Source: Bacillota bacterium (GTDB lineage: Bacteria; Bacillota; Sulfobacillia; JAJZYS01; JAJYTV01). Taken from it: a DNA stretch of 64,000 bases. Of the stretch, positions 6,477 to 24,806 are shown one piece after another. Under the pieces are notes generated by a model. That model was not told where the DNA came from. It did no database searches and worked only from the letters and a program-made list of their open reading frames with translations. Position numbers and translations under genes: made by a program. How positions within the stretch are numbered: the stretch's first letter is position 1; the number at the start of each line of letters is the position of its first letter. Location: positions 1 to 64,000 of the forward strand of contig JAJYTE010000004.1 of the NCBI GenBank assembly GCA_021793215.1. Reading direction: 5' to 3'.

Positions 6477-7499
6477 TCAGCTGGCCTGCTGGGGAGGTGC
6501 AGCCGTGCGCGCACAGATCAGTGCGATCAAGTCTTCGCTGGTGACGCCGCCGAGGTACTCCTCGACGGGCAGTCTGCGGAGGGCTGCATCCACGTCGTCG
6601 CGACGATGCCGACAGCCGCCGAGAGCGGCTTCGAGCTCCCCGATGTCCCGTTGGCCGAAGAAGTCGCCATAGATACGGCAAGTCTGGATGCGCCCGCTGG
6701 CGACGTCGAGCCGCACGTCGACCGTACCGGGGCCGAACCGCCGTCTGCGTTGCAGGGTGAAACGCGGGGAGTCCCCGTAGTTCCATTCCCAGCGGGCGTA
6801 CCGCTGCTCGCGCAGTCGGTGCACCTTTGCGAGCTGACCCTCGTCTAGCTGGATAGTCCGACCCACGCCGCCGTACTCCTGCGCGATCCCGGCGAGCAGC
6901 GCGAGGCGCAGGTCGCCCAGAGTGAAGCCCTGCGGCAGGTACGGACGCAGGTTCGTCACGCGGCTGCGCACGGACTTCACGCCGTGGCTCTCCACCTTCT
7001 CCGGATCGACGTGCAGGGCGCGCTGCACGTTCTCCAGATTGGCGTCGAAGAGGATCGTTCCATGGTGCATCAGCCGGCCGCCCTGAATGAACTGCGCGTT
7101 CCCGGAGAACTTGCGCCCCTCGACGGAGAGGTCGTTGCGGCTCGTCGTCTCCGCCGGAACGCCGAGGCGGCGCAGGGTGGCCGCAATGGGATCGAGGAAG
7201 CGCTGGAAGCTACTCCTTCCCCCTTCAGACTGCACGACCAAGGTGAAGTTGAGATTCCCGAGGTCGTGGTAGACGGCACCGCCGCCGCTACGCCGGCGTA
7301 CGACGCGCACGCCATGGCTGTCCACGTACTCCTGGTTGACCTCCTCGAGGGTGTTCTGGAACCGACCGACGATGACAGCCGGCTCATTCTGCCAGAGGAC
7401 GAGGTAGTCGTGCTCGGTCGGAAAGTACCCGTGGACGTACTCCTCAAGGGCCAGGTTGAATGCCGGTTCGGTGTGCAGGTTCTCGATCGGGATGAGCAC
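6477..7499 (-). CDS. lplA: Lipoate-protein ligase A (LplA/LplJ-like, with C-terminal accessory domain)
   Basis: AFNLALEEYVHGYFPTEHDYLVLWQNEPAVIVGRFQNTLEEVN...VVRRRSGGGAVYHDLGNLNFT...GRKFSGNAQFIQGGRLMHHGTILFD. Confidence 0.9.
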   Translation of the reverse strand: MLIPIENLHTEPAFNLALEEYVHGYFPTEHDYLVLWQNEPAVIVGRFQNTLEEVNQEYVDSHGVRVVRRRSGGGAVYHDLGNLNFTLVVQSEGGRSSFQRFLDPIAATLRRLGVPAETTSRNDLSVEGRKFSGNAQFIQGGRLMHHGTILFDANLENVQRALHVDPEKVESHGVKSVRSRVTNLRPYLPQGFTLGDLRLALLAGIAQEYGGVGRTIQLDEGQLAKVHRLREQRYARWEWNYGDSPRFTLQRRRRFGPGTVDVRLDVASGRIQTCRIYGDFFGQRDIGELEAALGGCRHRRDDVDAALRRLPVEEYLGGVTSEDLIALICARTAAPPQQAS

Positions 7500-7539
7500 T
7501 GATGGACGCCTCCTTGGCCGTTCAAACGGCGGCGGCTGC

Positions 7540-8067
7540 TCAGTCGGAGTGGCGGATGAGCAGGTGCGCCCCCTGATCCTGCTTCTCCACGTGGATCGAG
7601 TGGCCGCGCTCCCTTAGCTCCGGGTAGAGGAACTGCGGTTCGCGGTCGTTGAAGGCCTCGAGCACCTCGCCGGGACCCATCTCCTCGAGCGTCGACAGGA
7701 TGCGGATCATCGGCTCGGGCGGCGTGAGCCCGCGGTTGTCCAGGGTGCGCACAGGAGCCGGCCACCCCTCCGCCGACGTCTTCGCGGCGGCATCGTCGTC
7801 CGGCGCCGCCTTCGACCTGTGGCCGAAGAGCCCGCGCTTCTCGCCCGGGCTGAAGAGAATCTCCCAGTCGCCGTCCTCGATCCGCTTCGCCTCGTGTCCG
7901 TAGCCCTTCATGCCGAGCACCCGGTAGAGCGGGATCGGCTCGAAGGTGGCCCGCAGCAGCAGGGGCTGCCCAGGGGAAAGTCCCTTGACCGCCTGCATGA
8001 TCATCGGCAGCGGTTCGCGCCCAGCCTTGAGATCCGCGCGTACATCGAGAATCTTCGGTTCCATCAT
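7540..8067 (-). CDS. DUF2249-type protein with two tandem TusA-like domains
   Basis: ILDVRADLKAGREPLPMIMQAVKGLSPGQPLLLRATFEPIPLYRVLGMKGYGHEAK... and VRTLDNRGLTPPEPMIRILSTLEEMGPGEVLEAFNDREPQFLYPELRERGHS; two halves with the DUF2249 pattern. Confidence 0.75.
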   Translation of the reverse strand: MMEPKILDVRADLKAGREPLPMIMQAVKGLSPGQPLLLRATFEPIPLYRVLGMKGYGHEAKRIEDGDWEILFSPGEKRGLFGHRSKAAPDDDAAAKTSAEGWPAPVRTLDNRGLTPPEPMIRILSTLEEMGPGEVLEAFNDREPQFLYPELRERGHSIHVEKQDQGAHLLIRHSD

Positions 8068-8080
8068 GCTCCCACTCCCA

Positions 8081-9394
8081 TCAGGCGCTTTGCCGATCCG
8101 AAGGCACCGGTTCGGTCTTCGGGTGGCGCACCAGCCAGATCTCCCGCGCGATGCCCAGCGTCCCCACGAGCGTCAGCAGCGCCCCCAGCCGTAGAAGCCA
8201 TTCGCTCACCACCACCATCCCGAGCGTGCCGACTGCGGCGCCCCCGAAGTAGAGCCAGAACATCGGCCGCGCCCGGCGCTCGACGACGAGGTCCTGGACG
8301 CGCGGCACCCGGGTCTTCCCCAGCGTCTTGCCGTAGCGCTCAAGCCAGGTCAGGAACGGAACGATCTTGTAGAGTTGGCTGAGCGCGAGGCCGGAGAGCC
8401 AGCCGACCAGCAGTGCGTACACGAGGGCCGGAGCAAGGCTGGCGAACTGCGACAAGACGCCGGCGAACGCCGTCATCGCCGCCGCGACCCCGAGGGCCCA
8501 GAGAGAGACCCTGCCGAACACCGCGTTGGCCTCGAGTTCGCGTCGGCGCCGACGTCGGAACAGTTCGCGCATGTCGAAGAGGTAGAGCGCAACGCCGATG
8601 AACAGCGCACCCCAGCCGAGCATTCCGATGTCTTGCACCACAGGGCTCGGCATGAGCGTGAGGATGAGCCCGGCGAGCCACGAAGCGCCAATCCCGACGC
8701 TCACCAGCCAGAACGCCCAGTGGCGGGCGCGACCGCGATCCTCGGGGGCGAGCGCGAACATCGCGAGCAGCCGGTCCGCCACTCCCATGGCGGTTAGCCC
8801 GAACCAGCCGCCGATACCCCCGAGCAGGTGAAGTGCGATCCCCCGCGTCAGGAGCGCACCGATCGTGGCCGGGGCGAACACCTCTGGCAGCGTCAGCGCG
8901 ACGGCGAAGCTCACGCCGAGCAGAACCGTCAGCGTGAGGAAGCAAAGGCTCGCCGTGACGTAGAGCGCTGGCAGCCGAAGCGGGCGGGATGCGGCGAGCG
9001 TCACGCCGAGGTTCCAGACCGCGATGAGCACGCCCGCCAACACGAGCGTGCCGCCGATCGGCAGCAGTAGGCTGGGCATCGAGAGAAACCCGAGCACGAG
9101 CAGCACGAGTCCTCCCGCCACCAGCCAGAACGTCACGCCGCTGGCGGCTTGGCTATGGAGTCTCTTCGCGCCGATCACCGGGATGAACTGATGCAGCACG
9201 CCGAGCATCAGCAAGGTCAGCCAGCCGATGGTGACGAGATGCACCGTCGCCAGGGTGGCAGGCGCCGCCAAGGGGCGAATCGGGTACGAGAGTCCGAGCA
9301 CCATCAGCGCCTGCGCGAGCAGGAAACTCGCCACGGCGACTGCCACATAGCGAAGGGTCCAGGGCGAGACTTCGACTCCGTTCACCTTCGCCAC
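8081..9394 (-). CDS. Polytopic membrane protein, heme-copper oxidase subunit I-like / NnrS-like
   Basis: About 12 hydrophobic segments; VHLVTIGWLTLLMLGVLHQFIPVIG, GIALHLLGGIGGWFGLTAMGVADRLLAMFAL; His-containing TMs resembling NnrS/heme-copper relatives. Confidence 0.6.
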   Translation of the reverse strand: MAKVNGVEVSPWTLRYVAVAVASFLLAQALMVLGLSYPIRPLAAPATLATVHLVTIGWLTLLMLGVLHQFIPVIGAKRLHSQAASGVTFWLVAGGLVLLVLGFLSMPSLLLPIGGTLVLAGVLIAVWNLGVTLAASRPLRLPALYVTASLCFLTLTVLLGVSFAVALTLPEVFAPATIGALLTRGIALHLLGGIGGWFGLTAMGVADRLLAMFALAPEDRGRARHWAFWLVSVGIGASWLAGLILTLMPSPVVQDIGMLGWGALFIGVALYLFDMRELFRRRRRRELEANAVFGRVSLWALGVAAAMTAFAGVLSQFASLAPALVYALLVGWLSGLALSQLYKIVPFLTWLERYGKTLGKTRVPRVQDLVVERRARPMFWLYFGGAAVGTLGMVVVSEWLLRLGALLTLVGTLGIAREIWLVRHPKTEPVPSDRQSA

Positions 9395-11341: not shown

Positions 11342-12193
11342 TCAGACGAGGTCTGTGATGGCGCGCCGCACGTGCACTTCGGTGAGTCGTCTGCGGTACT
11401 CCGCGGAGGCGTAGAGGTCGCCCGCGAACTCGACCCCGTCGCCCGCGTGGCTCGCGGCCTCTGCCACGAGGTCGGGCGTCGGCTTCCTGCCGAGCAGCGT
11501 CGCCTCCGCTGCGCTGGCGCGGAATGGCGCCTGGCCCGCCCCGGTCACGGCGACTCTGGCGTGCCGCACAGTGCCGTCTGGCCCCATGGCCAACAGTGCG
11601 GCGACGCCGACCACGGCGTAGCCGGAGGCGGGGTGCGCCACCTTGCGGTAGACCTGCCGCGCGCCGTCCGGCGGTTCGGGGAAGGAAACCGCCGTCAGGA
11701 CGGCGCCCTGCGGCAGCGCGGTCAGCATGGGTCCGAGGAAGAAGCCGGCGGCCGGCCGCGACGAACTGCCGTCGGCCGTGGTCACTTCGAGCGTCGCGTC
11801 TAGCGCCAGCACGGCCGCCGCGAGGTCCGCGGCACCATCGCCGTGCACGAGGCTGCCGCCGATCGTTCCGCGGTTGCGCACCTGCATGTCGCCGATCTCG
11901 CCCGCCGCCTGAGAGAGAAGTGGCACGACCTCCCGCAGCAGAGGGTTCTGCGCGACGGCGGCGTGGGTCGTCAGCGCACCGACCACGATGCGCTCGCCCT
12001 CCCGACGGACACCGCGCAGCGCGGCGAGGCGTCCGATGTCGACGATTCGCTGCGGCATCGCGAGACGCAGCTTCATGAGCGGCAGCAGGCTCTGCCCGCC
12101 GGCGATCAGTTTGACGTCGCCCTCCTCCCGCAGCAGGCGCAGCGCCTCCTCGACGCTCGAGGCCCGGGTGTACTTGAACGCGCGTGCGATCAT
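11342..12193 (-). CDS. coxM: Molybdenum hydroxylase/CO dehydrogenase-like medium (FAD) subunit
   Basis: MIARAFKYTRASSVEEALRLLREEGDVKLIAGGQSLLPLMKLRLAMPQRIVDIGRL...MQVRNRGTIGGSLVHGDGAADLAA. Confidence 0.88.
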   Translation of the reverse strand: MIARAFKYTRASSVEEALRLLREEGDVKLIAGGQSLLPLMKLRLAMPQRIVDIGRLAALRGVRREGERIVVGALTTHAAVAQNPLLREVVPLLSQAAGEIGDMQVRNRGTIGGSLVHGDGAADLAAAVLALDATLEVTTADGSSSRPAAGFFLGPMLTALPQGAVLTAVSFPEPPDGARQVYRKVAHPASGYAVVGVAALLAMGPDGTVRHARVAVTGAGQAPFRASAAEATLLGRKPTPDLVAEAASHAGDGVEFAGDLYASAEYRRRLTEVHVRRAITDLV

Positions 12194-14535
12194 CGACCAT
12201 CCCTCCCCGCCTCGATCGCCTGGAGCACGCGCTCGGGCCAGAGCGGCATCGCGAGATCCCCCACCCCGAATGGCTGCAGGGCATCCACGACGGCATTGAT
12301 GATCGCCGGCGTCGCGGCGATCGTTCCCGTCTCGCCGATGCCCTTCGCGCCGAGCGGGTTATGCGGTGCCGGCGTCTCCGTGAACGCGGTCTCGAACGTG
12401 GGGAAGAAGCGCGCCTTGGGCATCGGGTAGTCGAGCAGGCTGCCGGTCAGCAGCTGCCCCTCCGCGCTGTAGATCGCGCCCTCCCAGAGCGCTTGGCCAA
12501 TTCCCTGCACGATGCCGCCGTGCACCTGCCCCTCCGCGATCATCGGATTGATCACGGTGCCGCAGTCGTCGACCGCGACGTAACGCAGGAGCTTCACGTC
12601 GCCTGTCTCCGGGTCCACCTCCACGACCGCGACGTGCGTGCCGAACGGGAACGTGAAGTTCGAGGGGTTGTAGTACGCGGCGGCCTCCAGCGACGGCTCG
12701 AGCCCTTCGGGCAGGTTCCACGCGAGGTAGGCCTGCAGCGTGACCGCCTGGAACGTTTCAGAGCGTTCCGGAGCACCCCGCACCTGGTAGGTGCCTTGCG
12801 CGAACTCCACGTCATCCTCGGCGGCTTCCAGCATGTGGGCGGCGATCTTGCGTCCCTTGTCGATCACCCTGTCCGCGGCGACCGCGATGGCGCTGCCGCC
12901 GACGGCCGTGGTCCTTGAACCGTACGTGCCCCAGCCCATGGCGATCCGCGCAGTGTCGCCGTGCACCACCTCGACGTCCGCGATCGGTATACCGAAGCGG
13001 TCGGCGACGATCTGCGCGAAGGTCGTCTCCTCGCCCTGGCCGTGCGGCGAACCTCCGGTGAACACCGTGACCTTGCCGGACGGATGCACGCGGATGTTCG
13101 CGCTCTCCCAAAGGCCCCCCTGGAAGCCGACGGCGCCTGCCACCTCCGACGGGCCGAGGCCGGAGATCTCGACGTAGCTCGAACAGCCGATGCCGATGTA
13201 CCGGCCATGACCGCGCAGTGCCGCCTGCTCGCGGCGCAGCCCCAGGTAGTCCACGGTAGCCAGGGCCTGCTCGAGCGCCCGCTGGTAGTTGCCGCTGTCG
13301 TAGCTGAGGCCCAGAGCCGACGGGTACGGGAACGCCTCCGGCCGCACCAGGTTCTTGCGGCGCACCTCGATCGGGTCCATGCCGATCTCCCGCGCGAACA
13401 GGTCGACCATGCGCTCCACGAGGTAGGTGGCCTCGGGTCGGCCCGCGCCGCGGTAGGCATCCGTCGGCGTCGTGTTCGTGAAGATGCCGTAGACGTCAAC
13501 GGCCGCGTGCTCGAAGGTGTAGGCGCCTGTCACGATCAGCCCGAAGAGGATCGTCGGAACGCCTGGCGCCGCCGTGGAGAGGTATGCGCCCATGTTCGCG
13601 ATGTTGCGCACCCGGATCGCTTCGAGCGTCCCCTCGCGCCGGCCGGCGAGCTCCACGTCGATCACCATATCACGCCCGTGGGTCGTCGCGAGGAAGTGCT
13701 CGGTGCGGGTCTCCGTCCACTTGACCGGTCTCCCGAGGGACATCGCCGCGAACGCGGTGAGCGCCTCATCGGGGTAGCAGGCGATCTTCGCGCCGAAGCC
13801 GCCGCCCACGTCTACGGAGACGACGCGCAGCCTGTGCTCGGGGATGCCCAGGACGCCGGAGAGCAGCACCCGGTGTATGTGCGGGTTCTGCGACGTCGCC
13901 CAGAGCGTCAGATCGCCGGTGGCCCGGTCGTACTGCGCGACGGCCGCCCGCGGCTCCATCGGGTTCGGGATGAGCCTTTGCTGGCGAAACGTGTGGCGGA
14001 CGACGACCTCCGCACCAGAGAACACCGCATCGGATACCTGACCGGCCTTCCAGTGGAAGGCGATGTTCCCGGGCGCATCGGCGTGCACGAGCGGCGCGCC
14101 CTCACGCATCGCGTCCGCCTGCTCCACGACGGCAGGAAGGGGCTCGTAGCTCACCCGGATGAGGTCGAGGGCGTCTCGCGCTGCCGCGGCACTCTCGGCG
14201 ACCACGAGCGCTACGCCGTCGCCCGCGTAGCGTACGGTGTCGGTCGCAAGGGCGGGGTGCGCCGTCGCCTTGATGTCCGAGTCGGGCGGCAGCCATGCTG
14301 TGGGAATCGGGCCCACCTTCCCGGCGATGTCGCGCCCCGTGTACACGGCGACGACGCCTGCGGCGGACCTGGCCGCCGCAACATCGATGGCCTCGATGCG
14401 CGCGTGGGCGCGCGGGCTGCGAAGAATGGCCGCGTGGAGCATGCCCGGTAGTCGCACGTCGTCCGTGTAGCGCCCGCGGCCGGTGATCAACCTGGGATCC
14501 TCGACACGCTTGTGCGGTACGCCGATCAAAGGCAT
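12190..14535 (-). CDS. coxL: Molybdenum hydroxylase/CO dehydrogenase-like large subunit, form II-type motif
   Basis: MPLIGVPHKRVEDPRLITGRGRYTDDVRLPGMLHAAILRSPRAHARI...VDVGGGFGAK...TDAYRGAGRPEATYLVER...ATPAIINAVVDAL. Confidence 0.88.
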   Translation of the reverse strand: MPLIGVPHKRVEDPRLITGRGRYTDDVRLPGMLHAAILRSPRAHARIEAIDVAAARSAAGVVAVYTGRDIAGKVGPIPTAWLPPDSDIKATAHPALATDTVRYAGDGVALVVAESAAAARDALDLIRVSYEPLPAVVEQADAMREGAPLVHADAPGNIAFHWKAGQVSDAVFSGAEVVVRHTFRQQRLIPNPMEPRAAVAQYDRATGDLTLWATSQNPHIHRVLLSGVLGIPEHRLRVVSVDVGGGFGAKIACYPDEALTAFAAMSLGRPVKWTETRTEHFLATTHGRDMVIDVELAGRREGTLEAIRVRNIANMGAYLSTAAPGVPTILFGLIVTGAYTFEHAAVDVYGIFTNTTPTDAYRGAGRPEATYLVERMVDLFAREIGMDPIEVRRKNLVRPEAFPYPSALGLSYDSGNYQRALEQALATVDYLGLRREQAALRGHGRYIGIGCSSYVEISGLGPSEVAGAVGFQGGLWESANIRVHPSGKVTVFTGGSPHGQGEETTFAQIVADRFGIPIADVEVVHGDTARIAMGWGTYGSRTTAVGGSAIAVAADRVIDKGRKIAAHMLEAAEDDVEFAQGTYQVRGAPERSETFQAVTLQAYLAWNLPEGLEPSLEAAAYYNPSNFTFPFGTHVAVVEVDPETGDVKLLRYVAVDDCGTVINPMIAEGQVHGGIVQGIGQALWEGAIYSAEGQLLTGSLLDYPMPKARFFPTFETAFTETPAPHNPLGAKGIGETGTIAATPAIINAVVDALQPFGVGDLAMPLWPERVLQAIEAGRDGR

Positions 14536-14550
14536 CCTGTTCCCTCCCCC

Positions 14551-15054
14551 CTAATCCCCCACCGCCCGGTCCTGCTCCGCAGCCAGGCGCCCGGCGGCGT
14601 CCTGCACCGCGCGTACGATGTTCTGGTAGCCAGTGCAGCGGCAGATCACGCCGTCGAGCCCCGCGCGGATCTCCTCCTCGGTCGGATGCGGCCGTTCCTG
14701 CAGGAGGCCGATCGCGGCCATCATCACGCCCGGCGTACAGAACCCGCACTGCAACCCGTGTCGGTCCCAGAACGCCGCCTGCACCGCGTGCAGGTCGTCT
14801 ACGCTGCCGATGCCCTCGACCGTCGTCACCTCCGAGCCTTCCGCCTGCACCGCCAACACCGTGCACGACTTGACCGCCTTGCCGTCCAGGAGCACGGTGC
14901 ACGCCCCGCACTGGCTCGTGTCGCAGCCGACGTGTGTGCCGGTCAGGCCGAGTTCCTCGCGGAGGTACTCTGAAAGGAGCGCCCTGGGCTCCACCGAGAG
15001 CGCATGCTGCACCCCGTTCACCGTGATCTTCAAAGGCTCCCACCCCTCTCGCAT
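14551..15054 (-). CDS. coxS: Molybdenum hydroxylase/CO dehydrogenase-like small [2Fe-2S] subunit
   Basis: [57 protein letters not shown]...[14 protein letters not shown]...[16 protein letters not shown]; start ambiguous (ATG 15054 or TTG 15033). Confidence 0.88.
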
Positions 15055-15596
15055 CGATGACCTCGGGGGAATGCCATTACCCTCGCCAGCTGGACGCCGA
15101 AAACCGCACCCCCTCACCTCCTCCTTTTACACCATATTCATCCATATTCCACTGTTTTGTCCATAGGCCGTCCGGGTTCCCTACGTCCACCGTCAGCAAT
15201 ACGTACGCGGCGCACCGCTGCGGTACGCCGCGCAAGGCAGCACATGGACGCACTCACGCAGGCCTCGGGCCTCTCTGTGACGCCCGCGGCTTGGGTCGCC
15301 GCCGCAGCGGACGGTCGGCGCATGACCGGCAACCGCCCGGCAGCGGCTGTTGAAGGGCAGTGATGTAGAGTGCGCTCCAGCGTGAGGCTCTTACGCCGGC
15401 TCGCACTCCACTCGAAGGGTACCGCTTGCGCACCGCTTGCGACACGGGTCACATGGTGCACCTCGCGTGCATCGCCCGTACCAGCGGTCCAGTCCGCAAA
15501 GCCCCACGCGACGGGACAAGAGCTCACGTCCCTGCGGCATGCACCTTTGCTTTTCGCACGTCCGGAACCGTGCTGCCCGAACTCACCGTACGCAGT

Positions 15597-15628: not shown

Positions 15629-16030
15629 CTAGAGAACCTGGACGACGTCCGCTTCCTGCACCTTCGACACGTACTCCGCGATGCCGACGATGTCGTCGAC
15701 GAGCGGTCGGAAGTCCTCGAGGCGCTCGGCGCCCCAGATCTTGCCCGCCGTCGAGCAGACGTGGATGCGCACGGTGCCTTCCGCGCGCAGGCGCGCGAGC
15801 AGGCTGAATGGATCCGGGACGTTGCTTCTCGACATGCCGGCGAGCAGTTCGTCCTTGAGCTCCGGGTGGTCAAAGGGCACCTCTCCATCCCTGCGGAAGG
15901 CCAGCGCACCCCCCAGCAGGAGGTAGACGTCGACCTCGAGATCGAGGGCGACAGCACCTCCGATCACGGTGGATGCCACGACCAGCTTCTCCATGCTGCC
16001 GCCTGCGACGCCGACGACCATCCTTGCCAT
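15629..16030 (-). CDS. DsrE family sulfur-relay protein
   Basis: MARMVVGVAGGSMEKLVVASTVIGGAVALDLEVDVYLLLGGALAFRR...VRIHVCSTAGKIWGAERL; DsrE-like fold pattern with conserved Cys. Confidence 0.7.
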   Translation of the reverse strand: MARMVVGVAGGSMEKLVVASTVIGGAVALDLEVDVYLLLGGALAFRRDGEVPFDHPELKDELLAGMSRSNVPDPFSLLARLRAEGTVRIHVCSTAGKIWGAERLEDFRPLVDDIVGIAEYVSKVQEADVVQVL

Positions 16031-16098
16031 ACCGCCCCGTCCTTTCTACCCCTCCGCGGCTCTGCCGAGGAGGAATCGAACAGCCTCTCAAGCCCCTG

Positions 16099-16575
16099 TC
16101 AGATGAACAGATTGACGTTCGCCTCGTCCGCCTCGCCGAGGTAGGTGGCCACTCCGGCGAACTCGAGCCCGTCGATGAGTTCCTCCGGTCGGAATCCGAG
16201 CACGTCCATGGACATGGTGCAGGCGATCATCTTGATCCCCTGCTCCTTCGCCGTGTCGATCAGTTCCTCCAGGGACGACACGTTCTGCTGGCGCATGACG
16301 CGCCGCATCAGCGGTGCGCCCATGCCGCCGAAGTTCATCTTCGAGATGCCCAGCTTCGCCGAGCCCTTCGGCATCATCGCGCCGAACATGCCCTGCAGAA
16401 AGCCCTTCCTCCCCGCCTTGCCGTCGGGCCTGCGCAGGATGTTGAGGCCCCAGAACGTGAAGAACATCGTCACCTCGTCGCCCATGGCCGCTGCGCCGTT
16501 CGCGATGATGAAGGCCGCCATCGCCTTGTCGAGGTCGCCGCTGAACACGATGATCGTCTTCTTGGTGGTGTCCAA
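16099..16575 (-). CDS. DsrE/DsrF/DrsH-like family protein (DsrE2-like)
   Basis: KKTIIVFSGDLDKAMAAFIIANGAAAMGDEVTMFFTFWGLNILRRP...GMFGAMMPKGSAKLGISKMNFGGMG...MIACTMSMDVLGFRPEELID. Confidence 0.88.
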   Translation of the reverse strand: MDTTKKTIIVFSGDLDKAMAAFIIANGAAAMGDEVTMFFTFWGLNILRRPDGKAGRKGFLQGMFGAMMPKGSAKLGISKMNFGGMGAPLMRRVMRQQNVSSLEELIDTAKEQGIKMIACTMSMDVLGFRPEELIDGLEFAGVATYLGEADEANVNLFI

Positions 16576-16598
16576 CTCTTCGCGCCTCCCCTGTCAGG

Positions 16599-17558
16599 TC
16601 AGGCTTCGTACGCCTGCCGCAGGAAGTCGGAGATATCCTCGAAGCGCATCCGGTCCTTCGCCGCCTTCTGCAGGTTGACGTAGCAGAGCGGGCACATCGT
16701 CACGCCGCGCCCGGAGACCGCCCGCAGTTCCTCGACGCGCCTTGCGGCCTGGGCCGCCGCCTTCTTCGGGAAGAGGGACTCGAGGGGTCCGCCGCAGCAC
16801 CAGGTCTGGGTCCCACTGTGCTCCGGCTCGCGCAGCGTGAGGCCTGCACCCTCCAAGAGGTCGCGCGGCGCCTGCACCACGCCCTCGTACCGCGCAAACA
16901 CGCAGGAGTCGTGGATGGCCGCCTCTCCTTCGAGGCGGTGCGTGGGAATGGGCGCCACCTCCGTGAGCACCTCGAGGTAGCTTTGCACCCGAAGGTCGTA
17001 CCCGTCGATCAGTGTGGGGTAGACCGAGCGCAGCATGTTGGTGGTGTGCGGGTCGATCGTGATGACCTCCTGCACCCCGTTGCGACGCAGGGCCGCGTAG
17101 ACGATCTGCGCATGCTCCCTCAGCTCCTCGTCGGCGCCAAGGTCATAGGCGAGCGCTCCCGAGTAGAGGTCCTCCTCGTAGAGGGCGCCGAACTCGACGC
17201 CCGCCCGCTGCAGCACGAGGGCGACGTTGCGCGGGATGCGGTCCCACGCCTCGCGCTGCTCGCGGGAGGGATGGGCCATGAAGCGCGAGATGTTCAGCAG
17301 TTTGTTCACCTGTCGTCCGACCCCCGTGAACCCTGCGAGCCAGGAGTCTCCGAGCTGCTCCTGCGCCGTCACGAGCCCCTCGATGTAGGGGATCAACTGG
17401 TACATCAGCCCCGTGTAGAGCACGCGCCGCCCGCCCCGGGGCAGGCCCAGACCTCGGGTCCAGCGGACCGCGTCCTCCGTGGGGATGGGCAGCACCGAAC
17501 GCCGGAGGCGGAGATTGTCCGCCAGGATGCCGATGGTGGCGCCTGTGGGCAAAGCCAT
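16599..17558 (-). CDS. hdrB: HdrB-like heterodisulfide reductase subunit (CCG domain)
   Basis: C-terminal CCG module: HDSCVFARYE...TWCCGGPLESLFP...TMCPLCYVNL; N-terminal CCG cysteines replaced (LYTGLMYQ). Confidence 0.82.
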   Translation of the reverse strand: MALPTGATIGILADNLRLRRSVLPIPTEDAVRWTRGLGLPRGGRRVLYTGLMYQLIPYIEGLVTAQEQLGDSWLAGFTGVGRQVNKLLNISRFMAHPSREQREAWDRIPRNVALVLQRAGVEFGALYEEDLYSGALAYDLGADEELREHAQIVYAALRRNGVQEVITIDPHTTNMLRSVYPTLIDGYDLRVQSYLEVLTEVAPIPTHRLEGEAAIHDSCVFARYEGVVQAPRDLLEGAGLTLREPEHSGTQTWCCGGPLESLFPKKAAAQAARRVEELRAVSGRGVTMCPLCYVNLQKAAKDRMRFEDISDFLRQAYEA

Positions 17559-17571
17559 TGCACTCGCCTCC

Positions 17572-17874
17572 TCAGATGCGGAACACGCTGCGGTTGAAGT
17601 AGTGGCGCAGGGAACGCACGTTGTCGGCGATGTGGACGCCGGCGGGGCAGTTCACGTCGCACAGCTTGCACAGGAGGCAGGAGAAGACGGTCTCTTGGTG
17701 TGCGAGTACTTCGTCCCTCATGCCGAGCTCGACGTAGCGGAACAGTTCTCGCGGCAAGTGGGGGATATCCATGGGACAGATCGCGCTGCAGATGCCGCAG
17801 TTCATGCAGGCTTCCGCGTTGAACGACTCGTCTACGCCCACCTCGGCGGCGAGGTGCGGCTGCAGGACGGTCAT
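17572..17874 (-). CDS. hdrC: HdrC-like 4Fe-4S subunit
   Basis: CMNCGICSAICPMDIPHLPRELFRYVELG and CLLCKLCDVNCPAGVHIADNVRSLRH: two 4Fe-4S motifs. Confidence 0.88.
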   Translation of the reverse strand: MTVLQPHLAAEVGVDESFNAEACMNCGICSAICPMDIPHLPRELFRYVELGMRDEVLAHQETVFSCLLCKLCDVNCPAGVHIADNVRSLRHYFNRSVFRI

Positions 17875-18122
17875 CAGGCTCCCTTCCTTTCGATCGCCCG
17901 GTAGAGGAAGTGCCCCTCTTCGTCCGCGTCCCCCGACTCGGCGACCCAGCCGTACTTGCGCAGTCCCATCACCCAGTACATCGCCTCGTGCGCGGGGACG
18001 CCCAGGGCGACCGCGATCGCGGGTACGGTTTGCGGGCCCTTGGCGAGGACCTCAAGGATCTCGCGCCGGCGCAGCATCTCCTCTCGGACGATCTCGCGCA
18101 CGTCGCGCGTCTGCTCCGTCAT
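17874..18122 (-). CDS. Small winged-helix-like protein embedded in the hdr operon
   Basis: EIVREEMLRRREILEVLAKGPQTVPAIAVALGVPAHEAMYWVMGLRKYGWVAESG; stop overlaps hdrC start (TGATG). Confidence 0.7.
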   Translation of the reverse strand: MTEQTRDVREIVREEMLRRREILEVLAKGPQTVPAIAVALGVPAHEAMYWVMGLRKYGWVAESGDADEEGHFLYRAIERKGA

Positions 18123-19853
18123 CTAGACGACCTCCCTCGCGAGGCCATCGATCATGGCCACGACCTGCGCACCGGTGTAGCCCTGCAGGTCGATCGCACC
18201 CGCGGGGCAAAGCGGCGCGCAGCCGCCGCATCCCTTGCAGGTGGCCGGGTTGATCATTGCGACCTTGCGGCCGGCCGCCATCTCCTGCGGGGCGATGGCG
18301 TCGTACGGGCAGACGTCGTAGCAGTCGCCGCAGTCGGTGCAAAGGTCGGCGTCCACGGTTGCGACCTGCGGGTCGAGTTCGGCGCGGCCCTGCCTGAGGA
18401 TCGCCGCGCTCTGCGTCACGGCTGCGAGCGCCGACATGACGCTTTCGGAACTGCTCTTCGGCGCCTGGCACGCGCCGCAGATCGCCACGCCGTCGACGAC
18501 CGTCTCGACCGGCCGCAGCTTCGGGTGGATCTCGTTGAAGAATCCGTCGCGGCCGATCGGCAGCTTGAGCGCCTTGACGAGCTCACGGTTCTCGCGCGGC
18601 ACCATGCCCGTTACGAGCACCACGAGGTCGACGGCGATGCCCACTTCCTTCTGGCCGGTGAGCTGGTCGCGCACGGTGACGAGCAGCCTGCCGTCCGCGC
18701 CCTTGGCGACGGCCGGCGGCTCGCCTTCCGGGAACTTGAGGTAGAGCGAACCCTGCTCGCGGGACTCCTGGTACATCAGCTCGTACTTGCCGTACGTGCG
18801 CATGTCGCGGTAGAGGTGGTACTGGCGCGCGGCGGGGTCCTTCTCGTGCAGCTGCAGCGACGCGTGCACGGCGGCGGAGCAGCAGAAGCGCGAGCAGTAC
18901 TGGTTCGGACCCTGATCTCCCTGTCGGCTGCCGACGCAGTAGACGTAGGCGACATCTCGCACCGGGCGGCCGTCTCGAACGAGCGGACCCTTCGCCGCAT
19001 CGAGCATCGCCTTGTACTCGGGCAGCGTCACGACGCCATCGATGCCGTAGCCGTACTCGCCCTCGGCGGGCTGGTAGTCGGCGAAGCCGGTCGCCACGAT
19101 GATCGAGCCCACCGAGAGCTGCATCGTCATCGACGAGCTGGAGTGCGTGCGGATGTCGACGACGTAGTTGCCGAAGCTGCCTGCCTTCTTGACCACCTCG
19201 GCCTGCGTGAAGACCGCGATGCTCTCGCGCCTGCGCACCTGCTCGACGAGCTGACCGATCAGCTCGCTGCCTTCCTTGTCGTTGGGGTACATCGGGCCGA
19301 ACGCCTGGACCCGGCCCCCGAGTTCGGCCTCACGCTCCACGACGACCACGGAGAGGCCGATGTCCGCGAGGCCGATCGCCGCGCGCAGCCCAGCGATGCC
19401 GGCGCCGATCACGAGCGTCTTCGGCACGGTCTCCACGACCGTGGGATCCAGGGGGGCGAGCAGCGCTGTGCGGGCGATGCCCGCGCGCACAAGGCGGATC
19501 GCCTTCTCGGTGGCGCCCTCGCGGTCGTCCGTGTGGGCCCACGAACACTGCTCGCGCACGTTCACCTGCGTGTAGCGGTAAGGGTTGAGCCCTGCGCGCT
19601 TCGCGACACCGCGGAACGTGAGCGTGTGCAGCTTGGGGGAGCACGAGGCGACGACGAGCCCGTCCAGGCCGAGGGACTGGATGTCGTCGTAGATCTCCTG
19701 CTGCGTCGCATCGGAGCAGGTGAACATCGCCGTGCGCGCGACGGTTACGCCCTCCTCGCCCTTGACCGCGTCGATCACGCGATCCACGTCGACGTAGTCG
19801 GAGATGTTGCCGCCGCAGTGGCAAACGTAGACGCCGATCCTGCGCGCTGTCAT
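18123..19853 (-). CDS. hdrA: HdrA-like FAD/Fe-S oxidoreductase (576 aa)
   Basis: RIGVYVCHCGGNISDYVDVDRV...KTLVIGAGIAGLRAAIGLADIGLSVVVVEREAELGGR...CTDCGDCYDVCPYDAI...CKGCGGCAPLCPAGAI. Confidence 0.92.
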   Translation of the reverse strand: MTARRIGVYVCHCGGNISDYVDVDRVIDAVKGEEGVTVARTAMFTCSDATQQEIYDDIQSLGLDGLVVASCSPKLHTLTFRGVAKRAGLNPYRYTQVNVREQCSWAHTDDREGATEKAIRLVRAGIARTALLAPLDPTVVETVPKTLVIGAGIAGLRAAIGLADIGLSVVVVEREAELGGRVQAFGPMYPNDKEGSELIGQLVEQVRRRESIAVFTQAEVVKKAGSFGNYVVDIRTHSSSSMTMQLSVGSIIVATGFADYQPAEGEYGYGIDGVVTLPEYKAMLDAAKGPLVRDGRPVRDVAYVYCVGSRQGDQGPNQYCSRFCCSAAVHASLQLHEKDPAARQYHLYRDMRTYGKYELMYQESREQGSLYLKFPEGEPPAVAKGADGRLLVTVRDQLTGQKEVGIAVDLVVLVTGMVPRENRELVKALKLPIGRDGFFNEIHPKLRPVETVVDGVAICGACQAPKSSSESVMSALAAVTQSAAILRQGRAELDPQVATVDADLCTDCGDCYDVCPYDAIAPQEMAAGRKVAMINPATCKGCGGCAPLCPAGAIDLQGYTGAQVVAMIDGLAREVV

Positions 19854-22546
19854 ACGCCCACCTTCATCCCTTCGATGTAGGCCGCCGCCTGCGCGACGGC
19901 CGCGCCGGCGTGCAGGATCGACTCCGGAATGTCCTTGGCGCCAGCCGCCGCCCCGGCGACGAACACGCCGGCGATCGACGTCTCGCCCGGACTGAGGTCC
20001 TCGTCGGTCTCGGCGACGTAGTAGTAGGCGTCGTGGGCGAGCTCGTCTCCCGCGAACAGCGCCTGGGTATCGAGGTTCGGCTGAACGCCGACCGCCAGCA
20101 CCACGAGGTCGAACTCCTCCTCGCGCGTGGCGCCCTCGTGCTCGATGTCCTCGTAGCGAACGATCAGGTTGCCGTTCTCGCGTTCCCGGATGCCAGCAAT
20201 GCGTCCCTTGATGAAGTTCGTACCCATCGACGCCGCCTGCACGTAGAACTCGTCGTAGCCCTTGCCCGCGGTGCGCACGTCGATCGTGAAGACCGTGACG
20301 TCCGCGAGCGGCAACGCGCCCATGATCAGCTGGTTCTGCTTGATCGAGTACATGCAGCAGATCTTGGAGCAGAGCGGATTCCCGACCGTCTGGTCACGCG
20401 ATCCCGTGCACATCACGTAGGCGATGCGGTCGGGCACCTTGCCGTCGCCCGGGCGCAGCACGCTGTTGTACGGCCGCGTCGGTGCGAGCAGTCGGTCCAT
20501 CTGCATGCCGGTGATCACGTTCTTGTACCGGCCGTAGCCGTACTGCGGCTTGAGGTCTGCAGGGAAGAGCCGAAAGCCCGTCGACACGATCACTGCGCCG
20601 ACCTGCGCCTCGATCGTCTCCGGCCGCATCTCGAGGTGGATGGCGTCCGCCGGGCACGTGTTGACGCACTCGTGGCACTCCGAGCAGACGCCGCAGTCGA
20701 GGCAGCGTCCGGCGCCGTAGTGCGCCTCCTCCTCCGTGAGCGGTGCCTCGATCTCCCAGAAATCGCTCGGCTGGTTCGTGATGGCTTTCCCGGATGCGCC
20801 GGGAGGCTTCTCGCTGTGGCTCTTCTGCCGGCGCAGCACGTCCTCGGGCTCCACCTTCGGCAGGCGCAGGTCGAAAGCGGCGGCGTCGAACTCCTGCCCT
20901 TGCAGGTAGCGATCGATCATGTACGCGGCGCGGCGGCCGGAGCCGACGGCCGTGGTGATCATCGTGGCTCCCAGCGCGACGTCGCCGCAGGCGAAGACGT
21001 ACGGCACTCCGCCCTGCAGGGTCTCGGGGTGCACATCGGCGGTGCGGTTGCGCCGCGGCGCCAGCGTTCCTTCGAACCCGGCGGTGTCCGGGCCCATGCC
21101 GATCGCCACGATCACCGCGTCGCACGCGAGCTCGCCGCGGTCCGCTTCGTCGTAGCGCGGGCTGAAGCGTCCGCTCGCGTCGAAGACGGCCGTGCAGCGC
21201 TTGAGCTCGATCGCCTGTACGCTGCCCGGGCCCCGCAGGGCTGCGACGCCCCACCCGTCGTGCAGCGCGACGCCCTCCGCGAGCGCCTCCTCGATCTCCC
21301 AGGCGAAGGCAGGCATCTCGTGCCTGCGCTCGAGGCAGACCTGCTCCACCGTGGCGCCGAGGCGGCGGGCGGATCTCGCGGCGTCGATCGCCACGTTGCC
21401 CCCTCCGACGACGACGACGTGCTTGCCCCGCAGGTGCTGCGGGCGGCCGAGTTTCGCGTCCTCTAGGAAGGTCAGTGAGGGTACGACGCCCTTGAGGTCC
21501 TCACCCTCCACACCGAGCCTCGCGGCGCGCGGGGTACCGGTCGCCAGGAGCACCGCGTCGAAGCCGTCACGGTGCAGGGCTTCGAGATCGTCGATGCGGT
21601 GGTTCGTTTCGATCTCCACGCCGATGGCTACGAGGTTGCCGACATCCTGCGCCACGACTTCCCCGGGCAGGCGGTACGCGGGAATCGTCAGGGCCAGTGC
21701 GCCGCCTGCGACCGGAGCGGCCTCGAACACCTTGACGCCGTAGCCCAAGAGGCGAAGCTGCCATGCGGCGGTGAGGCCGGCGGGTCCAGACCCGACGACT
21801 GCGACGCGCCGGCCGTTCTCCGCCGTGGGTTCCACGCCGACGGGGTTGCCCGACGCGTAGTGGGTGTCCGCGATGAACCGCTTGATGCGGCGGATCGGCA
21901 CCGGCCCCTCCAGGCTGCCGCGCGAGCACTCGTCCTCGCACGGCGCGAAGCAGGCGCGACCGAGGCTGCCCACGAGCGGCGTCGTCTCCAAGATGAGGTT
22001 GAAGGCCTTCTCGTACTCGCCGCTGCGGGTCAGGGAGACGTAGCCGTGGGCCTTGATGCCCGCGGGGCATGTGAAGGTGCATGGCGACGTGCCCGGCCGG
22101 TCGATCACGGCCTTCTTCGGCACCGCCTGCGGGAAGGCGATGTAGGCGGCCCGCCGCGCCACGAGGTCCGCGTTGAACTGGTCGGGCACCGCGACGGTGC
22201 AGGCCATCTCGCACTGCTGACACCCCGTGCAGGCGTCCTCGTCGACGAAGCGGGGGTTCTTGCGCACAACGGCGTGGAAGTGCCCGCCCGCGTCGCGCGA
22301 GATCTTCTCGACCTCGGCGTAGGTCAGCACGTCGATGTTCGGGTGGTGGATCGTGGCCGCCATCTTCGGCGTCGAGATGCAGCTCGCGCAGTCGAGCGTG
22401 GGGAAGACCTTGCTGAGCAGAATCATCTTTCCGCCGATCGAGGCCTCCCGCTCGACGACGAGCACCTTGTAGCCCATGTCGCCAAGCTTCAGGGCGGATT
22501 CCATGCCGCCGATGCCGCTGCCGATCACGAGCGCGTCGTAGTCCAT
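19850..22546 (-). CDS. HdrA-like protein with internal GltD-like (NAD(P)H-dependent) oxidoreductase module (898 aa)
   Basis: N-terminal MDYDALVIGSGIGGMESALKLGDMGYKVLVVEREASIGGKM..CTGCQQCEMACTVAVP; central GltD-like PCTFTCPAGI..RRVAVVGSGPAGLTAAWQLRLLGYGVKVFEA..VVVVGGGNVAIDAARSARRLG; then CGVCSECHECVNTCPADAI and an HdrA-type C-terminal half. Confidence 0.88.
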   Translation of the reverse strand: MDYDALVIGSGIGGMESALKLGDMGYKVLVVEREASIGGKMILLSKVFPTLDCASCISTPKMAATIHHPNIDVLTYAEVEKISRDAGGHFHAVVRKNPRFVDEDACTGCQQCEMACTVAVPDQFNADLVARRAAYIAFPQAVPKKAVIDRPGTSPCTFTCPAGIKAHGYVSLTRSGEYEKAFNLILETTPLVGSLGRACFAPCEDECSRGSLEGPVPIRRIKRFIADTHYASGNPVGVEPTAENGRRVAVVGSGPAGLTAAWQLRLLGYGVKVFEAAPVAGGALALTIPAYRLPGEVVAQDVGNLVAIGVEIETNHRIDDLEALHRDGFDAVLLATGTPRAARLGVEGEDLKGVVPSLTFLEDAKLGRPQHLRGKHVVVVGGGNVAIDAARSARRLGATVEQVCLERRHEMPAFAWEIEEALAEGVALHDGWGVAALRGPGSVQAIELKRCTAVFDASGRFSPRYDEADRGELACDAVIVAIGMGPDTAGFEGTLAPRRNRTADVHPETLQGGVPYVFACGDVALGATMITTAVGSGRRAAYMIDRYLQGQEFDAAAFDLRLPKVEPEDVLRRQKSHSEKPPGASGKAITNQPSDFWEIEAPLTEEEAHYGAGRCLDCGVCSECHECVNTCPADAIHLEMRPETIEAQVGAVIVSTGFRLFPADLKPQYGYGRYKNVITGMQMDRLLAPTRPYNSVLRPGDGKVPDRIAYVMCTGSRDQTVGNPLCSKICCMYSIKQNQLIMGALPLADVTVFTIDVRTAGKGYDEFYVQAASMGTNFIKGRIAGIRERENGNLIVRYEDIEHEGATREEEFDLVVLAVGVQPNLDTQALFAGDELAHDAYYYVAETDEDLSPGETSIAGVFVAGAAAGAKDIPESILHAGAAVAQAAAYIEGMKVGV

Positions 22547-22555
22547 GCTCTCCGC

Positions 22556-22996
22556 CTACTCCCTCTCGATCGGACCGAGCTCCTCCAGGACCTGGCGGAA
22601 CTCGCGCATGTACTTGGTGAACGGCTCCGCGCACACCGAGCAGATCGCCGCCATCCTCAGGCGCGCCGGAGCGATGCTGCACTCCTGCATACGCGCCTGC
22701 GCTGTCTCGAAGATCTTGGCGGAGCGCTCGGCGCAGTCGCTGAGGTATGCGCACTCCTCACCGTCCGACGCGATGAACACGCCGTCGAACCCCTGCTGCA
22801 GCGCGCGTACGATCCAGTCCGGCGAGATCCCGCTGGTGCAGGGCAGCGCGATCGTCACCACCGACGGCGAGTAGTGCATGTGGGCGCTGCCCGCGAGGTC
22901 GATGCCGGGGTCCGAGATGTTGTTCGTGGAGAATACGAGGATCCTCGGTGGCTTGCGGCCGGCTTCGGGGAGCCGGCGCTCCAGTTGCACCGCCAT
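22556..22996 (-). CDS. MvhD-like hydrogenase iron-sulfur (delta) subunit / HdrA partner
   Basis: RILVFSTNNISDPGIDLAG...VVTIALPCTSGISPDWIVRALQQGFDGVFIASDGEECAYLSDCAERSAKI. Confidence 0.82.
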   Translation of the reverse strand: MAVQLERRLPEAGRKPPRILVFSTNNISDPGIDLAGSAHMHYSPSVVTIALPCTSGISPDWIVRALQQGFDGVFIASDGEECAYLSDCAERSAKIFETAQARMQECSIAPARLRMAAICSVCAEPFTKYMREFRQVLEELGPIERE

Positions 22997-23002
22997 GGCT
23001 GA

Positions 23003-23257
23003 CTACTTCGCGCGCCGGATGAGCAACTTCAGGTACCCGGATTCCTCGACGAAGCCCAGGAACTCGTGGCCCATCTTCTTCGCCCACGCGGGCAGGTCTC
23101 GCTGCGTGCCGGAATCGGTCGAGAGCACGGCCATGACTCCGCCGACCTTCACGTCGACGATTCCCTTCTTGGCGGCCAGGATCGGACCGGGGCAAGAGGT
23201 TCCGCGCGCGTCTACGACCTTGTCCACCGCTATGCTCGCGAGTTCCATCGTGGTCAT
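23003..23257 (-). CDS. tusA: TusA family sulfurtransferase
   Basis: VDARGTSCPGPILAAKKGIVDVKVGGVMAVLSTDSGTQRDLPAWAKKMGHEFLG; CPGP motif; SD GGGAGG 7 nt before ATG at 23257. Confidence 0.93.
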   Translation of the reverse strand: MTTMELASIAVDKVVDARGTSCPGPILAAKKGIVDVKVGGVMAVLSTDSGTQRDLPAWAKKMGHEFLGFVEESGYLKLLIRRAK

Positions 23258-23780
23258 CTCGATGCCTCCCAAAGGACTCCCGTCGGATCCACCGTCATTC
23301 TAGGAGGTCGGTTCGGCGTCGCCCATCGCCGTAGGTACTCCCCTGGGCATCCGAACGCCGCGACTCTGCAGTCCACCTGGTGCGCCCCCCGCTGGCGGAC
23401 ACCCCGACCGGACCATCTTCCGTCACGCAACACCGCGCAGTGACGCCCGCGCAGGGCATTGAGCGTGCGGCGAAGATGGTACAAAAGGCGGCATGATGGC
23501 TGTCACCTCCCTCCGCCGCCTTTGGCGACGATGCGATCAGCCTTCGGACGAAGGTGCGCACCTTTGCGGCAGATCCCGGTCCCTTGCGGGCCGCACCCTC
23601 GTCCGAGCGCCGAGGTACTCCGACATGCCGCCGCATGTATCGTCCAAAAGGGGGCGTTCCCGTGGCGGCGGGACCGCGATCCTGGCTGCCTGCCCCCCGC
23701 CGAGCTGCGCGCAGGGGGCGACGACGGGCCGCGTGGGCGACTCCTCGCCGTCCGCGCGGCCCTCCCCCTGCTGCCGGTTC

Positions 23781-24806
23781 CTAGCCGGTGAAGCCCTCCT
23801 TCGGTGCGCCGACCGCTGCCGCGCGGCGCTGCCCGGTTCCTGCCAGCGCCGAGATGCCCAGCGCGACACCGATGACCGTCAGCGCCATGCCGATCGTCGC
23901 CACGAGGAAGGAGATGCCGTAGACGGCCGGGGAGACGAACACGTAGAGGATGCCGCCGGCGAAGATGACGATGCTGCCGGCGAGAAGCGTGAGGCTGGCA
24001 ACCCGGCTGCGGCTCTCGTCGCGCGCGAACTGCTTCAGCACAAGGAGCAGCGTCGCGACCGCGGGCAACAGGAACAGGGCGAAGTCCTGGTGGTACCAGC
24101 CGTAGACGGCGTCTACCGGAGCGCGTGAAGCGGTTCCGACGCCGTGGCCGCAGAGGCCCCCGTGGGCATCGATGAAGAAGCCGATCATGACCACCGTGAC
24201 GAACATCATGGCGGTCAGAACCCCCGACCCCCAGCGGATCACCGTCTGCGGCAGCCGCTCGGCCGCGAGCCCGATCAGCGCCACAAGCCCGCCGAACATC
24301 ACGCCGACCCCGACCACAAGGTCGTCGCCGGAGATGCCGCTCACGCCGTGCGCGAACAGCGTTGGCGGCTGCGCCCAGGTGGCGCCTGCGACGACGTAGA
24401 CGATCGTCATGCCCAGGACGCCGACGGCCGTCCACCAAAGTCCGAAGCGCATCAGCCAGTGACCCCGCCGCTCAAGCGTAAATGCACCGCAGAACGTCGC
24501 GACGATCAGAGCGATCACCGCGACGACCATCAAGTGGGCGTGCGCCGAGATGAGGTGCGTGAGAAGGCTTTGCCAGGTCTCCGCGGAGAGCGCCGCCCAT
24601 CCCCCGATGATCGCCTTCGGGACGTTGCCGAACTCCAGAATCCAACCTGCGATGTGCCCCATCACCCCAGACAGGAGGCCGCCGAGCGCGGCGAACGCCG
24701 CGGTCCAGGTCTCCACTTTGTGGATCTCCACCGCGCGCTGGAAGAGGGCCAAGCTGAGCGTGATCAGGCGCGCGGGCGACCTGACGCTCCTCGTCGGCGT
24801 CGTCAT
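23781..24806 (-). CDS. Polytopic membrane protein, heme-copper oxidase subunit I-like; N-terminus uncertain
   Basis: THLISAHAHLMVVAVIALIVATFCGAFTLERRGHWLMRFGLWWTAVGVLGMTIVYVVAGATW... multiple hydrophobic segments with conserved His; 5' end overlaps an antisense paralog fragment. Confidence 0.62.
   Translation of the reverse strand: MTTPTRSVRSPARLITLSLALFQRAVEIHKVETWTAAFAALGGLLSGVMGHIAGWILEFGNVPKAIIGGWAALSAETWQSLLTHLISAHAHLMVVAVIALIVATFCGAFTLERRGHWLMRFGLWWTAVGVLGMTIVYVVAGATWAQPPTLFAHGVSGISGDDLVVGVGVMFGGLVALIGLAAERLPQTVIRWGSGVLTAMMFVTVVMIGFFIDAHGGLCGHGVGTASRAPVDAVYGWYHQDFALFLLPAVATLLLVLKQFARDESRSRVASLTLLAGSIVIFAGGILYVFVSPAVYGISFLVATIGMALTVIGVALGISALAGTGQRRAAAVGAPKEGFTG

Follow-up and report, generated by a model that had tools for sequence, protein, structure and literature searches.

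Sulfane sulfur handling in the cytoplasm is usually credited to DsrAB, to the sHdr system or to dioxygenases; a literature search returned sHdr, HdrL, Qmo-HdrBC, Flx-Hdr, YTD and DsrL as the systems nearest to the operon considered here. The sHdr set reads hdrC1B1A-hyp-hdrC2B2 and is accompanied by lbpA and lplA (PMC6067878). In the available excerpt of a report on Desulfobacterium autotrophicum, HdrL is an HdrA/glutamate-synthase fusion encoded next to mvhD, with a proposed role in NADH oxidation, and one tandem hdrL/hdrA locus includes HdrB and HdrC orthologues (PMC2702500). The QmoAB-HdrCB layout is known from sulfate-reducing Gram-positive bacteria and from certain sulfur oxidisers (PMC10504309, PMC6397845). 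A YRR motif in DsrL or NfnB signals NADP(H) use and its absence NAD(H) use, the NADH-like type in DsrL going with sulfur oxidisers (PMC7596348).

The window is the whole 64,000-nucleotide stretch analysed here, from the genome of a Bacillota bacterium (assembly of 2.74 Mb, 97.7% complete; contig G000:C25). Between 15629 and 23272 it holds nine neighbouring minus-strand open reading frames (ORFs) separated by gaps of -4 to 68 bp (Table 1); the initial annotation's description of nine tightly spaced genes is borne out by these ORFs and gaps and by the Pfam/NCBIfam assignments. Its end for TusA, 23257, is an in-frame ATG, but the ORF itself opens at a TTG at 23272. CoxM/L/S-like genes of the xanthine-dehydrogenase family lie directly downstream of the cluster (11342-15117), and a predicted 341-aa protein without a Pfam match is encoded upstream of TusA (23781-24806).

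Table 1. Genes of the cluster, in order of transcription (window coordinates).
Feature	Position	Strand	Evidence
TusA sulfur carrier, 89 aa from TTG	23003..23272	-	PF01206 73.6 bits; active Cys27 in SCPGPIL
MvhD/FlpD [2Fe-2S] electron-transfer subunit, 146 aa, separate gene	22556..22996	-	PF02662 96.7 bits
HdrL-like flavoprotein, 898 aa	19850..22546	-	HdrA2 and GltD-type NCBIfam matches; PDB matches to HdrA, NfnA/GltD
HdrA, 576 aa, FAD and iron-sulfur ligands	18123..19853	-	NCBIfam HdrA2 477 bits; 5odc_A 386 bits
Winged-helix protein, 82 aa	17874..18122	-	AlphaFold pLDDT 89.8; ArsR-type winged-helix fold matches
HdrC, 100 aa, two [4Fe-4S] motifs	17572..17874	-	HdrC-type two-cluster ferredoxin by NCBIfam/Pfam
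HdrB-like predicted active-site subunit, 319 aa	16599..17558	-	PF02754 at 214-297 only; one CCG motif
DsrE2-like sulfur carrier, 158 aa, Cys119	16099..16575	-	PF13686 221.7 bits; matches 3pnx
Second DsrE-like protein, 133 aa, Cys92	15629..16030	-	2qs7 match E 2.8e-7; weak Pfam DsrE match

The gene set is a cross-phylum operon and not a local oddity. An HdrB alignment used to scan GTDB species genomes yielded 80 related loci, 62 of which hold TusA, MvhD, HdrL, HdrA, HdrC and HdrB in the same order; a core order fixed in 62 loci means that the grouping is more than chance. All 62 full clusters also contain the winged-helix gene, which in two Acidobacteriota loci and one Phycisphaerae locus comes after HdrB and not before HdrC, and 59 of the 62 carry a DsrE-family gene, in some cases a DsrE of shorter length that has a CxPC motif. 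Regulators apart, no flanking family recurs widely among the related loci. Pairwise distances, with shared ancestry left in, correlate at r 0.91 for HdrL-HdrA, 0.84 for HdrA-HdrB and 0.58 for TusA-HdrL; subunit identities, conservation, synteny and this co-inheritance are directly established. The concatenated tree spans 14 labelled phyla, including archaea (Thermoplasmatota); Thermoplasmatota and Pseudomonadota are each confined to one side of a branch, while Bacillota and Actinomycetota require four changes each, a pattern from which transfer can be inferred to a limited extent since the phylum labels come from metagenome-assembled genomes. Within the window's family the distribution is patchy: the cluster is absent from G001-G004 (no close HdrB was found in the three same-genus genomes or in G004) and present in G005-G009, the five genomes of the sister genus, at HdrB identities of 77-78%. 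One further locus, L122 (G056:C34), holds a partial wHTH-HdrC-HdrB-DsrE2 cluster in which HdrB is broken across two frames and no HdrA precedes it, and is either a decaying copy or an assembly error.

Each sulfur carrier retains its cysteine in every aligned copy: TusA Cys27 in 62 of 62, Cys119 of the DsrE2-like protein in 51 of 51 and Cys92 of the second DsrE-like protein in 15 of 15. The structure matched by the former DsrE protein, 3pnx, is annotated 'putative sulfurtransferase dsrE', and 2qs7, matched by the latter, is a DsrE-like structure. The earlier view that sulfur carriers are wired to Hdr subunits is supported. The YTD cluster (YedE-TusA-DsrE) likewise brings TusA and DsrE together, but it contains no Hdr (PMC12998232), and a YedE-type transporter (PF04143) was not found in the window's genome.

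On the Hdr side, the eight cysteines of HdrC are invariant (79 copies) and the cluster ligands of HdrA and HdrL are mostly 98-100% conserved across the family. As in canonical HdrABC, the window's HdrA is a flavoprotein with iron-sulfur ligands; in contrast to the canonical two, its HdrB has one non-cubane CCG site. This site is a single C-x34-CC-x33-CxxC motif (C219, C254, C255, C289 and C292, all invariant), and the N-terminal half lacks the cysteines, 65 of 76 copies having none at all ahead of the motif. The HdrB model (pLDDT 87.8) matches EtfD, LutA and methanogen HdrB, which indicates that the fold is kept while one cluster site has been lost. The winged-helix protein reaches the cut-off of no Pfam family. 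Its conserved residues E46, W50 and G58 fall within the putative recognition helix and beyond it, which would be uncommon in a protein reading specific DNA sequences; it may plausibly act in structure or assembly instead.

Electron input appears to involve the HdrL-like protein, an HdrA core into which a GltD/NfnB-type pyridine-nucleotide module is inserted at about residues 150-550; the module matches NfnA, the glutamate synthase small chain and dihydropyrimidine dehydrogenase. MvhD, in turn, keeps C53, C82, C88, C119 and C122 invariant (64 copies). An NAD(P)H-type module and MvhD standing in place of a lipoate protein, as first annotated, are supported. The D. autotrophicum HdrL is alike in being an HdrA and GltD fusion adjoining mvhD; it differs in its link to formate dehydrogenase or DsrABC, and the available excerpt of its description does not mention TusA or DsrE (PMC2702500). 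DsrL is similar in having a GltD-type NAD(P)H module for sulfur redox chemistry and in the YRR motif rule, but is not fused to HdrA and has DsrAB as its partner (PMC7596348). Methanogen HdrABC-MvhD and bacterial FlxABCD-HdrABC have HdrA, HdrB, HdrC and MvhD parts in common with the operon, with flavin-based bifurcation possible; here, however, the NAD(P)H module is fused into an HdrA, and the carriers are TusA and DsrE instead of CoM-S-S-CoB or DsrC.

Motif reading predicts two cofactor types in the family, NADPH-like with YRR and NADH-like with CLE, the latter found at the YRR position in the window's HdrL and its clade. Among Dsr-bearing genomes whose motif can be read, 16 of 18 have YRR, versus seven of 26 without DsrA (Fisher p 6e-5), but relatedness-corrected independent pairs give three for and one against, so that the association is suggestive at most. 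NAD(H) coupling is also indicated by L089 (by family matches run on that locus) and likewise L107, where diaphorase genes of HoxU- and NuoF-like type come immediately after HdrB. In both loci (L089:8069-12125, L107:10657-15132) the gene directly 3' of HdrB encodes a GcvH-like domain joined to a HoxU/NuoG-like ferredoxin; next come HoxE/NuoF-like genes in L089 and, in L107, one NuoF-like gene.

The initial annotation had labelled the cluster sHdr-like; that it belongs to the sHdr family is not supported. The locus has one HdrC, one HdrB and two different HdrA-type flavoproteins, a subunit set other than that of sHdr; over the same query region its HdrA scores 178 bits with methanogen HdrA and 120 with sHdrA (6tjr); and the DsrE2-like protein, at 103 bits, is far below the cut-off of 210 of the DsrE2 equivalog NF047629. 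The absence of a lipoate-binding protein (LbpA) from the locus, remarked on at the outset, stands, and the genome search for a GcvH-like LbpA proposed with it found two GCV_H proteins, each encoded within a glycine-cleavage operon and neither at the cluster. On these four counts the locus is by its sequence not sHdr; the complex may nevertheless do sHdr-like work. The two systems are alike in encoding TusA/DsrE carriers with Hdr subunits and, in gene order only, in HdrA-small protein-HdrC-HdrB, which parallels hdrA-hyp-hdrC2B2; they differ in the added GltD module and MvhD and in the lack of LbpA or a conserved lipoate ligase.

No lipoate-binding protein belonging to the operon was found in the compared loci, and no lipoate ligase in any of the 80 related ones. 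The ligase gene noted about 8 kb downstream of the cluster (6477-7499) is real but stands outside the conserved unit; in the window it is accompanied (6477-9394) by genes for a 175-aa DUF2249/TusA-like protein and a weakly COX1-like membrane protein, beside HMG-CoA reductase and GHMP kinase. GcvH-like matches near L089, L107 and L110 were rejected as LbpA: they are domains of longer proteins, partly fused to the HoxU/NuoG-like ferredoxin, and by reading of the alignment they appear to miss the lysine at the lipoyl position. A plasmid search for sHdr comparators gave two weak HdrA matches only, and although L042 (G031) is an HdrB relative at 33% and has a lipoate ligase within range, it was set aside as a comparator, being a LutA/LutB-like pair beside efp.

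The function inferred for the operon, to which slightly better than an even chance is given, is that of a soluble NAD(P)(H):sulfane-sulfur (carrier-persulfide) oxidoreductase; the distinct thiol/persulfide-to-NAD(P)H wiring first suggested is supported as a putative reading. In such a complex, sulfane sulfur would be held as persulfide on TusA Cys27 and on DsrE Cys119 and Cys92, while pyridine nucleotide would bind the GltD module of the HdrL-like protein. Electrons would be exchanged among the nucleotide, MvhD, the flavin of HdrA, HdrC and HdrB, whose one non-cubane cluster would be the place at which the carrier S-S bond is cleaved or formed. With one active cluster and NAD(P)H as partner, a two-electron step would fit best (carrier-S-SH + NAD(P)H -> carrier-SH + sulfide); ferredoxin may be a third partner through flavin-based bifurcation, and the reverse reaction could serve as the first step of sulfur oxidation. 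Textbook potentials are about -270 mV for sulfur/sulfide, about -40 mV for sulfite/sulfur and -320 mV for NAD(P). On these values reduction by NAD(P)H would be downhill, but oxidation to sulfite with NAD+ would run uphill, a point in favour of the reductive direction. Within this oxidoreductase reading the reductive direction is given a slight preference over the oxidative one, the NADH-like motif of the window's copy leaning towards the latter. Biochemistry for a family member was not found in the literature searched.

The main rival, judged unlikely, is a lipoate-independent functional analogue of sHdr that would oxidise TusA/DsrE-bound sulfane sulfur to sulfite and pass the electrons to NAD+. 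Its carriers would be those of sHdr, the gene order parallel would be explained (PMC6067878), and the CLE motif of the window's clade is of the type that in DsrL is tied to sulfur oxidisers (PMC7596348); the five carriers that have AprA but no DsrA (L073, L084, L098, L099 and L120) also fit an oxidative, sulfite-forming role better. Such a four-electron oxidation would however have to run on one HdrB with one cluster and without LbpA, the operon is common in sulfate reducers that bear DsrD, a reductive-type companion (nine carriers, eight of them Bacillota), and the window's genome lacks Apr, Dsr and a YeeE/YedE-type transporter.

Genome context bears on two further explanations. Among 51 cluster-bearing genomes, which are related and hence non-independent, DsrA is found in 18 (14 over the cut-off) and AprA over the cut-off in 21, frequencies far above the background, in which a minimal Dsr set is present in about 1% of genomes (2070 of over 195,000; PMC10504309). 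Neither protein occurs in 28 of the 51, the window's genome included, and DsrAB and AprAB were not found in that genome or its family. In QmoAB-HdrBC the MvhD domain is fused to the second HdrA (QmoB), whereas the window's MvhD is a separate gene before HdrL. A soluble complex of this kind (HdrAACB) serving APS reductase would account for two HdrA-type flavoproteins with HdrC and HdrB, the QmoAB-HdrCB layout (PMC10504309, PMC6397845). It would leave the GltD insertion, the separate MvhD and TusA/DsrE as extra parts, and APS reductase is missing from most carriers: no AprA passes the cut-off in the window's genome or the five sister-genus genomes, and neither aprAB nor sat was seen as a recurrent neighbour family of the related loci. 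A Qmo-type role is accordingly very improbable.

Regulators are the recurring neighbours, with ArsR-type genes in the flank of about 15 loci and CsoR-family genes in 10 (L061, L062, L065, L066, L070, L072, L073, L075, L083 and L091), where a divergent repressor lies upstream of TusA; it mostly carries Cys-His-Leu near the usual ligand positions and is possibly a persulfide sensor. Both families would fit sulfane-sulfur control of the sHdrR/SoxR kind, described in the available part of a report on these sulfane-sulfur-responsive regulators (PMC12423496). Sulfur- or metal-sensing families nearby, the 28 carriers without Dsr or Apr and the patchy occurrence within the family would also suit a device for sulfur delivery, persulfide homeostasis or detoxification outside energy metabolism, for example one keeping TusA/DsrE reduced or providing sulfide for biosynthesis; a multi-subunit redox complex would be a costly and complex means to that end, and enrichment in Dsr/Apr-bearing genomes speaks against it, so this explanation is rated improbable. 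The window's genome further encodes NarG, complex I, formate dehydrogenases and a Psr/Phs/Soe-like molybdoenzyme. The last, a 961-aa protein with no obvious Tat signal encoded beside a fused Fe-S/NrfD protein (L136:4326-8777), is nearest to thiosulfate/polysulfide reductase, below the cut-off, and could be Psr- or Soe-like; a link to the cluster was rejected, as 88-89% copies occur in same-genus genomes without it.

A TusA/DsrE-HdrL operon is not described in the literature searched, subscription titles being outside its scope, and a prior report is possible; one paper on methane archaea reportedly mentions HdrA and GltD often, but not TusA. A little less than an even chance is given to the reading that the operon stands for a family of NAD(P)H:TusA/DsrE-persulfide oxidoreductases not described before, one that needs neither Dsr nor lipoate, comes in NADPH- and NADH-type versions and extends over 14 or more phyla, Thermoplasmata among them. 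If so, there would be one more Hdr-like route for sulfane sulfur in the cytoplasm besides rDsr, sHdr and Flx-Hdr/DsrC, many uncultured lineages and cultured Desulfotomaculum relatives would gain a sulfur pathway, and marker-gene surveys would miss it or mislabel the operon as sHdr or Qmo. The family is directly testable since cultured Desulfotruncus, Desulfoscipio and Desulfofundulus carry the operon, among the strains being Desulfotruncus alcoholivorax DSM 16058 and Desulfofundulus australicus DSM 11792. Another carrier, Desulfofundulus thermobenzoicus, is listed as a thiosulfate disproportionator (PMC12998232).
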